From NCBI GenBank assembly GCA_904395815.1, contig CAJFOC010000037.1, positions 1 through 35,043 on the forward strand: a stretch of 35,043 nucleotides of DNA, written 5' to 3'. A program made the position numbers and the translations under genes. The notes beneath the pieces are model-generated. The model made no database searches. It was given only the letters and a program-made list of their open reading frames with translations, and had not been told where the DNA came from. The stretch is from an uncultured Holdemania sp. (GTDB lineage Bacteria > Bacillota_I > Bacilli_A > Erysipelotrichales > Erysipelotrichaceae). Below, one piece after another: positions 114 to 2,533 of this stretch (its first letter is position 1; every line of letters starts with the position of its first letter).

Positions 114-142
114 TTGAACTGCCCAGGGTCCTACGGTATAAT
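114..142 (+). promoter_or_regulatory. Sigma-A type promoter of the ANTAR-pyrG operon
   Basis: TTGAAC (114-119) and TATAAT (137-142) are separated by exactly 17 bp. The predicted transcription start is near 149-150, giving an unusually long leader of about 230 nt before the first gene at 381. Confidence 0.85.
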
Positions 143-156
143 AACATCCGTTGAAC

Positions 157-198
157 AAAGGGGTTCGTGAAAATGGTTCTTTTCATGTCCCCTTTTTT
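157..198 (+). terminator. Promoter-proximal attenuator-like terminator in the pyrG operon leader
   Basis: AAAGGGG (157-163) pairs with CCCCTTT (189-195). An inner stem, TGAAAA (168-173) with TTTTCA (180-185), closes a six-base loop TGGTTC (174-179). A run of six T residues (193-198) follows. The hairpin lies within the first 50 nt of the predicted transcript and 180 nt before the first gene, so it looks like a conditional terminator (attenuator) rather than a gene-end terminator. The regulator is not shown by the sequence; the ANTAR protein encoded next is the obvious candidate. Confidence 0.7.
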
Positions 199-380
199 CA
201 TGGATTAGAAGCTGAAAATGAGGTGAAACTGATGAATAGGAAACGGCTCTCTGGCTCCCGGTTCGTACAGAAAAACGATGTGCGTCTGTATCGTCTGACG
301 TTTTGCGGTTTACCAGGGCCGGCGTGCCGGTTTCTTATGGGATGGCGGCGTAATCAACCGCGCCGGACGGATGGTTTTCT
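199..380 (+). promoter_or_regulatory. Remaining leader of the ANTAR-pyrG operon, GC-rich and structured
   Basis: About 180 nt lie between the attenuator hairpin and the ANTAR start codon. Visible elements are AAAACG near 274 pairing with CGTTTT near 299, and a self-complementary CCGG-CGTG-CCGG stem near 318-330 that G-U pairs can extend and a short T-rich stretch follows. A GCGG/CCGC stem lies close to the start codon. No PyrR site, T-box motif or convincing leader peptide was recognised. An open frame over 151-384 exists but has no ribosome binding site and no family resemblance. Confidence 0.4.
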
Positions 381-932
381 ATGAGTTCCGTATTGCTGGT
401 AAAAAACGCGCTGTGCGCTTCGGCCCGGCTGGACAGTCTGGTCAAACGGTGCGGATTTGATCGGATCGAACAGAGCGTTTCCCTGTCTTCTTTGCCTCAG
501 CGGCTGACCGGCGTTGTGCCGGATCTGGTGATCATTGATGTTCCTTCCCAGGAACAGGATGCCGTGCACATTCTGGAAGAGCTGAGCCAGCGCCGCCAGT
601 TGCCGCCGGTGCTGTTGTTTGTTCGCGCCGGGCAGACCGTTCTTTTGCCGGAGGTTTTTTGCGTGGCGCGGCCGATGCGGATCAGTCTGCTGCTGCCGCA
701 GATCGCGCGGCGTTTTCCGCAGCTGACAGAGAGCTGTGAAGGATTGCGGAGCGCGGCATGGCAGAAAAGCTGGACGGACAAAGCGAAGGCGCTGCTGATG
801 CAGCAAAAAGGATGGGATGAACAGACAGCCCATCACTACCTGGAAAAACAGGCGATGGATCAGCGCATTCGCCGCTGGCAGGCGGCGCAGAACATTGTCG
901 AAGCAATAAAGAAGGAAGGAGAACAACAATGA
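381..932 (+). CDS. ANTAR-domain response-regulator-like antiterminator
   Basis: This 183-residue protein has a C-terminal ANTAR RNA-binding domain at about residues 132-178. The pattern [10 protein letters not shown], then AxxxLExxAMD and a closing AxxIVEAI, is the ANTAR signature. ANTAR proteins such as EutV, NasR and AmiR bind tandem RNA hairpins and prevent transcription termination. Residues 1-120 resemble a receiver fold (PDLVIID, with Asp53 where a phospho-acceptor could lie), but the usual N-terminal acidic pair is absent (LLVKN), so phosphorylation is doubtful. The frame is closed by a stop at 351, and ATG 381 is the only plausible start; its ribosome binding site is weak. The stop overlaps the pyrG start (ATGA), implying translational coupling. 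The ANTAR call is firm; its target and signal are inferred. Confidence 0.85.
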
Positions 933-2533
933 AATATATTTTTGTAACCGGCGGCGTGGTTTCAGGACTGGGCAAGGGGATCACGGCAGCTTCCCTGGGA
1001 CGGCTGTTGAAAACAAGGGGACTGAAGGTTGCTTCGCAGAAGCTCGATCCGTATATCAATGTGGATCCGGGAACGATGAGTCCTTATCAGCATGGCGAGG
1101 TGTTTGTGACGGAGGATGGAGCGGAAACCGATCTGGATCTTGGTCATTATGAACGTTTCATCGATGAGGATCTCAATCGCTTTTCCAATCTGACGACCGG
1201 CAAGGTTTACTGGAACGTGCTGAACAAGGAGCGCAGCGGCGCCTATCTGGGCGAGACGGTTCAGGTGATTCCGCACATCACCAACGAGATCAAGAAGTTT
1301 ATCTATTCGGTAGGCGATACGTCCAATGCCGATGTGGTGATTACTGAAATCGGCGGGACGATCGGCGATATTGAAAGCCAGCCGTTTATCGAGGCGATCC
1401 GGCAGATTTCTCTGGAAGTCCGCAAGGAAAACTGCCTGTTTATTCATGTGACGCTGATTCCCTACATCGCCAGCTCCGGCGAGCTGAAATCCAAGCCGAC
1501 CCAGCATTCGGTCAAGGAACTGCGGGCCAACGGCATCACGCCGGATATCATCGTCTGCCGTTGTGACGAGCCGCTGCCGCAGTCGCTGAAAGAGAAAATC
1601 TCGCTGTTCTGCAACGTTGCGCCGGATTGCGTGATTGAAAACCGCACGGTGCCGGTGCTTTATCAGGCGCCGCTGATGCTGCAGCGGCAGCGACTGTCCG
1701 ATAAGGTTTGCGAGATGCTGAAGCTGGATTGTCCGCCTTGCGATCTGAGCGAATGGACGGCCATGGTGCAGCGAATTCATTCGCTGGATAAAACCGTGAC
1801 GATCGGACTGGTCGGCAAGTATGTCCGGCTGCACGACGCTTATCTGTCGGTAGCGGAGGCGCTGCGTCATGGCGGTTACGCCAACGGCGCGCAGGTGGAG
1901 ATCCGCTGGATTGAGGCGGAACAGGTCACGGAGAAGACCGCGGCCGAGGTGCTGGGAGAATGCGATGGTATTCTGGTGCCGGGCGGTTTTGGGGATCGCG
2001 GGATTGAAGGCAAAATCGCCGCCGCCCGTTACGCCCGTGAAAACAACGTTCCGTATCTGGGCATCTGCCTTGGCATGCAGACGGCCGCCATCGAATTCGC
2101 CCGGCATGTGCTGGGACTGCAGGGAGCGCATTCCCGTGAGTTTGATCCGGCCAGTCCGCATCGGATTATCGATTTTATGGCAGATCAGTCGGACGATATC
2201 GACAAGGGAGGAACGATGCGGTTAGGAGCTTATCCATGTCATCTGGCGGAAGGTTCGCTGCTGCAGCGGCTGTATGGACAGAATGAAATCCGCGAACGTC
2301 ACCGGCACCGCTACGAATTCAACAACCAGTACCGGCAGTTGTTTCAGCAGCATGGCATGATGATCTGCGGGACTTCGCCGGAGGGAACGCTGGTGGAGGC
2401 GATAGAATATCCGGCCTGTGACTTCTTTGTGGCGGTGCAGTATCACCCGGAATTCAAAAGCCGTCCCAACCGGCCGCATCCGCTGTTCAGCGGGCTGATC
2501 GCTGCTGCGCTGCAGCATGGGAAGTTGCGGTGA
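929..2533 (+). CDS. pyrG: CTP synthase
   Basis: CTP synthase makes CTP from UTP, ATP and glutamine in the cytoplasm, the last step of de novo pyrimidine nucleotide synthesis. The 534-residue length is normal for the family. The N-terminal synthase domain begins [16 protein letters not shown] and carries the expected ATP-binding loop. The C-terminal class I glutamine amidotransferase domain (from about residue 285) has GGFGDRG, the nucleophile Cys380 in LGICLGMQ, and the catalytic His-Glu of YHPEF near the end. ATG 929 follows an AAGGAGA ribosome binding site and overlaps the ANTAR stop by 4 nt. No terminator was seen between it and the csp promoter just downstream. The pairing with an ANTAR regulator is not the arrangement known from Bacillus subtilis, where rpoE precedes pyrG and control is by CTP-sensitive reiterative transcription. 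Confidence 0.98.

Follow-up and report, generated by a model that had tools for sequence, protein, structure and literature searches.

A promoter-proximal hexaloop leader and an ANTAR protein as probable regulators of a CTP synthase operon in Holdemania and its relatives

Introduction

How might CTP synthesis be controlled where the CTP synthase gene pyrG lies directly behind the gene of an ANTAR-domain protein and the transcript runs into a hairpin within its first nucleotides? This question is raised by a stretch of 35,043 nucleotides from an uncultured Holdemania sp. (GCA_904395815.1, contig CAJFOC010000037.1), here called the window, which is an entire contig of an assembly of 2.0 Mb with a completeness of 94.7%. 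A first-pass annotation of this DNA had proposed that an RNA-binding protein controls CTP synthesis by antitermination. It had taken the known scope of ANTAR systems to be ethanolamine, nitrate and amide use, which proved too narrow, as nitrogen assimilation beyond these had already been described (PMC3369931).

An ANTAR site is marked by a hexaloop with A at its first and G at its fourth position (A1 and G4; PMC3369931, PMC8934654). ANTAR leaders at glutamine synthetase (GS) genes are already known (PMC3369936, PMC3369931), and for Clostridium acetobutylicum an ammonia-assimilation antiterminator, nitR, is described (PMC4676874). Two ANTAR proteins are held by a ligand-binding partner, AmiR by AmiC (PMC3369931) and NasT by NasS.

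Results and Discussion

The ANTAR-pyrG operon and its products

All genes of the operon are encoded on the forward strand. An open reading frame of 50 codons (the leader ORF, positions 232-384) with the ribosome site GAGGTG and no Pfam match ends in an ATGA overlap with the start of the ANTAR gene (381-932). The ANTAR protein of 183 aa consists of a degenerate receiver, a coiled coil and an ANTAR domain (residues 123-173, positions 747-899, forward strand; Pfam 53.4 bits, E 2e-14, cut-off 27.3), and is the single ANTAR match found by profile search in the window's own genome. A second ATGA overlap joins its gene to pyrG (929-2533), which encodes a full-length, glutamine-hydrolysing CTP synthase of 534 aa (849 bits). 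The junction of these two genes, as first annotated, is therefore borne out. Behind the operon (2539-2902), a perfect promoter (TTGACA-17-TATAAT) is followed by a leader of about 120 nt and a cold-shock protein gene.

For the predicted structure of the ANTAR protein (mean pLDDT 87, pTM 0.60), the best six Foldseek matches were chains of Rv1626, EutV and AmiR (E 5e-6 or better), and VIA-align listed mainly receiver domains. In EutV, Lys149, Glu160 and Tyr164 contact G4 and Met172 serves as a plug (PMC8934654). Matched to these positions by spacing only, K136 is kept in 42/43, E147 in 43/43 and M159 in 41/43 sequences; by the same spacing, the position of Tyr164 is a His (H151) in 43/43 and that of Arg168 a Glu in 33/43, including the window. 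The receiver-like part reached 15 bits, under its cut-off. Of the canonical receiver residues, the acidic pair is lacking, the Lys is replaced by Arg in the window, and the acceptor Asp (Asp53), which the window has, occurs in only 10/43 sequences overall. The receiver does not have the residues of a phospho-receiver of the EutV type; it is degenerate, unlike that of EutV and like that of AmiR. Given the lack of the acidic pair and the rare Asp, a partner protein or ligand is a likelier input than phosphorylation.

A hexaloop that shares a strand with the terminator

The operon is preceded by a sigma-70-type promoter (TTGAAC-17-TATAAT, 114-142, forward strand) with 10/12 consensus matches. By consensus count it is no better than chance (2 in positions 1-3000 vs 1.8 in shuffles), yet each of the three genus-mates has kept it. 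Their -10 is identical in 3/3, and the -35 reads TTGAAC in two of them and TTGAAA in the third. Transcription presumably starts near 149-150, about 2-3 nt 5' of a hairpin termed P1 (152-167, forward strand), in which the strands UGAAC and GUUCG enclose the loop AAAGGG (157-162). The loop carries A1 and G4 (position 160) and is closed by a C-G pair. It is followed by, and overlaps with, an intrinsic terminator (157-195, forward strand) with the arms 157-163 (AAAGGGG) and 189-195, an inner hairpin (166-187) and a U-tract reaching to 198. The terminator hairpin folds at -16.8 kcal/mol, compared to -6.3 ± 2.2 for 500 composition shuffles; a general terminator scan of the window did not pick it up, probably because its stem is interrupted. 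The consensus promoter and the U-tailed hairpin within the first ~50 nt of RNA, both claimed in the first-pass annotation, were thus confirmed; that description had overlooked the hexaloop at 152-167 and the leader ORF at 232-384.

Since the loop and the 3' strand of P1 double as the 5' arm of the terminator, the two folds are mutually exclusive. When the growing RNA was folded stepwise, P1 formed at 3' ends from 166 to 180, was joined by the inner hairpin once the end reached 190 and was replaced by the terminator at ends of 196 and beyond. At the gathering score no Rfam family matched, either in the window or in six other leader-bearing loci that were searched, and two weak Rfam matches were to animal RNA families only. 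With its A1, its G4 and its overlap with the terminator, the hexaloop of the window resembles published ANTAR target RNA, and we propose P1 as the candidate ANTAR-binding antiterminator. The systems of EutV, NasR and AmiR (PMC3369931, PMC8934654) share with the window the ANTAR protein and the nitrogen theme, and their targets share the A1/G4 hexaloop, the C-G closing pair and the overlap with the 5' arm of the terminator. The window differs from them by one hexaloop at the start of the RNA and by CTP synthase as the target.

In the mechanism suggested by these features, an unheld P1 would be undone as AAAGGGG, its loop and 3' strand, pairs with CCCCUUU further downstream, which would end transcription after about 50 nt. 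An active ANTAR protein on the hexaloop would block the terminator. Read-through would then deliver the leader ORF, the ANTAR gene and pyrG, whose translation would be coupled in a row. Binding by the ANTAR protein and the direction of the effect, antitermination, are the steps which we infer. The two mutually exclusive and co-varying folds, the conserved order of promoter, hexaloop and terminator, the link to ANTAR genes and the repeated occurrence of such leaders ahead of glutamine genes, described below, all lead to this model. Autoregulation of the operon by ANTAR antitermination at this leader is, judged from the sequences, quite probable.

Conservation and co-variation of the leader

Conservation of the hairpin in close relatives was checked, and it is present in 3/3 genus-mates. 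Their leaders keep the promoter, P1 and the terminator, whereas the inner hairpin varies in its loop. In one genus-mate (L051), A1 is replaced by G. Altogether, 26 leaders of the family were compared, 16 in front of pyrG-linked operons or pyrG, nine in front of type III glutamine synthetase genes (GSIII) and one in front of gdhA. The P1 stem showed 30 cells in which both sides of a pair had changed (10 ± 3 in shuffled and 3 to 13 in slid alignments), and the terminator stem showed 27 (9.6 ± 2.5 shuffled, 4 to 17 slid). Columns 15-18 of the alignment belong to both folds, and this strand co-varies with both of its partners. All leaders except L051 (25/26) were picked by scans which required A1, G4 and pairing in the stem. 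Neither the paired percentage of P1 (92.3) nor the letters of the loop can therefore count as independent evidence, whereas the scans made no demand on how pair types are spread among the leaders.

The palindrome GAAC-N6-GTTC at the inferred start site is also an inverted repeat in the DNA, and it could be read as an operator at +1 for a conventional repressor. We consider this highly improbable, as the letters of the stem differ while pairing is kept (GAAC, GAGC, CGGC, CAGC, TGGC and AGGC occur) and the same strand co-varies with the terminator. The loop letters give no argument on this point, since A1 and G4 were demanded by the scan.

Upstream of 18 pyrG-linked operons defined by synteny, the scan for P1 and terminator matched in 14/18 cases. 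Two near forms, L071 with an interrupted terminator stem (found by a relaxed scan) and L051 with its changed A1 (found by alignment), raise the A1/G4-type hexaloops overlapping a terminator to 16/18. The other two operons (L066 and L067) have no such leader before glnA; it is present there before GSIII. As a control, the same scan matched at 0/21 mechanical ORFs (≥150 aa) of the window. In a second control, a set of 196 ORFs which includes loci fetched because of such leaders, 24 were scan-positive, of which 22 were the known leaders again and two were others (L125 and L130).

Synteny of ANTAR and pyrG genes and loss of glnA

The family sample comprised 145 genomes, 47 of which had an ANTAR match at E 0.001 and 43 a match above the cut-off. 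The adjacency of ANTAR gene and pyrG was checked in these relatives and recurs there: pyrG lies directly behind the ANTAR gene on the same strand in 18/47 family loci, the window included (15 of the first 30 loci plus L049-L051), and the adjacency also occurs in Clostridia (L178, L226, L246). Twelve of the 18 operons have the order glnA-ANTAR-pyrG. The six without glnA are the window, its three genus-mates, L071 and L074. Among the other 46 family loci, 35 have a glnA-like gene within the fetched stretch. The 11 without it are the three genus-mates, L071, L074 and six weak partial matches, which lie in frames of ~300 codons and are probably another kind of protein. Outside the family, L226 and L246 show the leader followed by glnA-ANTAR-pyrG, and L178 has the order glnA-ANTAR-leader-pyrG. 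In L230, pyrG is located ~1 kb behind glnA-ANTAR, and in L228 leader and pyrG are located ahead of glnA-ANTAR. The leader stands immediately before pyrG, and not before glnA or the ANTAR gene, in L038, L178, L186 and L228. On the basis of these comparisons, the predicted control of CTP synthase by an ANTAR protein is well supported.

A glnA-ANTAR layout, like that of Clostridium acetobutylicum, where nitR lies beside glnA, was not found in the window, where only the leader ORF resembles the N-terminus of GlnA. In a search of four sequences, the likeness to the first GlnA residues extended over ~20 residues, with E 3.4e-5 in the case of the window and E values of 0.001 to 0.004 in the other cases. 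Between L049 and L051, 13/19 changed codons among the first 55 alter the amino acid, and a role of the leader ORF as a regulatory peptide was rejected on this ground. As its start is GlnA-like and it is not clearly kept as a protein, we take the leader ORF for a relic that persists as a leader, and a remnant of the 5' end of glnA is its probable origin. The arrangement in the window looks derived from a glnA-ANTAR-pyrG operon. A single GS match, of GSIII size, was found in the window's genome and in that of each genus-mate (three genomes). Three lineages, namely the window's genus, G043 and G006, have lost the GS-like partner. The G006 genome (locus L074), a single contig of 3.9 Mb, has no GS match and keeps leader-ANTAR-pyrG. 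In L071 and L074, purA is located just 5' of this operon. The likeness to nitR (PMC4676874) is an ANTAR antiterminator tied to ammonia assimilation; the difference is the partner gene, which is pyrG here, while of glnA the window's genus retains only a leader ORF.

The pyrG gene of Bacillus subtilis is regulated by reiterative initiation. With this precedent and with a leader ORF at hand, the leader of the window might sense CTP or UTP directly, by reiterative initiation or by translation of the leader ORF, leaving the ANTAR protein a secondary role. This is very improbable in our view. The GGGC start of the Bacillus type, whose absence had been pointed out before, was indeed not found at the inferred start site. 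Furthermore, leaders of this class are also found ahead of glnA, GSIII and purF, and the leader ORF lies 3' of the terminator and has mostly codon changes that alter the amino acid. The likeness to the Bacillus system is the attenuator before pyrG; the difference is that a protein-dependent RNA switch without a GGGC start is proposed here.

Possible decay of a glutamine synthetase beside the ANTAR gene

For the relatives which keep the partner, GS sequences from the fetched loci were compared, most of them encoded beside ANTAR genes; X-containing sequences and one duplicate were left out. In this set, 46 glnA-like proteins (L031-L076, L173-L252) are of a short type without the C-terminal block. 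A deletion of two residues precedes the active-site flap in 46/46, and the Glu of the flap is changed to Lys in 30/46. At nine catalytic positions, 16/46 keep six or fewer, 23 keep eight and 7 all nine, compared to eight or nine in 11/11 full-length GS. Three short-type proteins tested fall below the NCBIfam GlnA cut-off. Full-length glnA occurs beside the ANTAR gene in some loci (L175, L207).

From these sequences, the GS-like protein beside the ANTAR gene is likely the sensor in the relatives, and it is possible that the short-type proteins are pseudoenzyme sensors. A GS-derived sensor acting in the manner of AmiC for AmiR would fit these findings by analogy. The likeness to AmiC-AmiR and NasS-NasT is a receiver-like ANTAR protein beside a putative sensor in the relatives; the difference is that this putative sensor is GS-like and absent from the window's genus. 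There, the present sensor may be the ANTAR protein itself, the GSIII enzyme or PyrG.

Genes behind the leader

Leaders of the family also precede glnA operons, GSIII (L046, L048, L052, L056, L066, L067, L068, L039, L033; identified by Pfam for L033, L046, L066, L067 and L068 and from size and place for the others), a glutamate dehydrogenase gene (L035), purF (L114) and a lone pyrG (L038). Public genomes were scanned for GAACAAAGGNGTTC with a terminator behind it, which gave at least 119 stretches, with 80 loci among the matches listed. These contained 81 motif places, 66 of them with an ORF by the rule used; ten short or distant ORFs (L174, L177, L185, L189, L195, L199, L200, L208, L243, L251) were dropped and 56 were analysed. 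Among the matches listed, at least 21/56 ORFs match glutamine synthetase and at least 12/56 a class-II glutamine amidotransferase, three of these with glutamate synthase domains, while CTP synthase, asparagine synthase and the small chain of carbamoyl-phosphate synthase are found at least twice each (≥2/56). Nitrate and nitrite genes also occur behind leaders among the matches listed. In one public locus (L225), a hexaloop leader precedes a cut-off purA, whose product uses no glutamine.

The leader class thus precedes glnA, GSIII, gltB, purF, carA, asnB and pyrG elsewhere. This sharing favours the signal that had been suggested from the window alone, nitrogen or glutamine; the signal as such is deduced from the genes, and it probably is the nitrogen or glutamine state. 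CTP synthase would in this case be tuned to the glutamine supply.

An ANTAR protein is encoded in 19/20 leader-bearing genomes, hand-picked from those found through the leader, vs 0/14 control genomes. The bare P1 sequence occurs in 20/47 family genomes with and 12/98 without an ANTAR match (p 8e-5, 145 genomes), a weak co-occurrence because many matches lie inside a coding sequence which reads like EF-G.

These results also bear on the explanation that the leader is a constitutive promoter-proximal terminator which sets a low, fixed level, with the ANTAR protein acting elsewhere or being a relic. The lost glnA partner and the lack of a second such leader among the inspected matches of the own genome would agree with it. 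However, the 5' strand of P1 lies for the most part outside the terminator and co-varies with the strand it pairs with, the third-position bias of the ANTAR gene indicates coding constraint, and the leader recurs before glutamine genes in genomes that encode ANTAR proteins. We therefore regard a constitutive terminator as unlikely. In several GSIII leaders, the 5' strand of P1 also pairs within an extended terminator.

One hexaloop instead of two

Published ANTAR targets with dual hexaloops have a second A1/G4 hexaloop nearby, with a linker of 5-12 nt in eut leaders. The window has none; in the window and its relatives, a single hexaloop is located right at the promoter. Within 45 nt upstream, a second A1/G4 hexaloop was found in 0/26 family leaders and in nine of the 80 public matches listed (0.68 expected). 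By their titles, all nine records are from Proteobacteria (Polaromonas, Rhodoferax, Comamonadaceae, Thiotrichales and others), and there the second loop is found as predicted from the published dual motif. Further matches from Proteobacteria (Marinobacterium, Neptuniibacter and Xanthomonas) had no second upstream hexaloop by the same rule.

In 32 of the 80 public matches listed, compared to 0.54 expected from shuffles, the motif is separated by 6 to 17 nt from the end of a strong promoter, which leaves scant room for another hairpin. Judged by this spacing, many leaders of Bacillota and treponemes look like the promoter-proximal single-hexaloop kind. Downstream, a lenient rule found a second hexaloop in 4/26 (1.2 expected) and 5/32 (1.9 expected) leaders, and a minority of leaders may have a weak second loop. 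The inner hairpin of the terminator was considered as the place of a second hexaloop and dismissed, as the loops there vary in size and sequence.

In Walshe et al. (2022; PMC8934654), the minimal ANTAR site is redefined as one hexaloop, contact with both hexaloops is required to prevent termination, and the extent of single-hexaloop use is posed as a question. The present leaders are natural candidates for attenuators with one hexaloop, each fitting promoter and terminator into ~100 bases, and searches for two-hexaloop targets (PMC3369931, PMC8164766) would, this suggests, miss them. ANTAR antitermination itself is known. The literature searched (titles and abstracts, with few subscription papers covered) held no report of ANTAR control of CTP synthase and none of a single-hexaloop leader class at the promoter, and the main text of PMC3369931 does not mention CTP, pyrG, purF or amidotransferase. 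Relative to this literature, pyrG as a probable ANTAR target and the promoter-proximal leader class are new, and CTP synthase and other glutamine-amidotransferase genes are added to what ANTAR proteins may control.

A wider picture, to which we give about even chances, is that single-hexaloop ANTAR switches at the first nucleotides of the RNA are widespread in the family, in Clostridia and in treponemes, and govern a glutamine regulon of synthesis and consumers (CTP, purine, asparagine and carbamoyl-phosphate). They would be read by a pseudo-receiver ANTAR protein with a decaying, GS-derived glutamine sensor, which would have been lost in the window's genus, where the CTP synthase operon is the only target that the scans could see.

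Search for further targets

In the window's own genome, the GSIII gene has no hexaloop leader. Seven of 12 one-mismatch pattern matches were inspected, and none had promoter and terminator; 6 + 7 further inspected matches did not combine promoter, P1 stem and terminator. One of the matches in this genome (L094) has a promoter, but the match itself is a ribosome site. Among the matches inspected, promoter, P1 stem and terminator thus occur together only at the window site. The model used in these searches centres on a terminator, so that ordinary terminators score as well. When it was applied across the family, with only 35 candidates scored per genome, the window was not recovered, and the tally was set aside. 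The class-wide scan for bare P1 (matches in 15/296 genomes, several of them in the family, mostly coding or unclear) was likewise set aside as evidence. The palindrome GAACAAAGGCGTTC was seen in L099 (G131:C86) and L131 in plain terminator-like palindromes without the leader layout. In L090 (G000:C27:14980-15025), GGTGGTACCACG is followed by a terminator, and this sequence resembles a T-box antiterminator.
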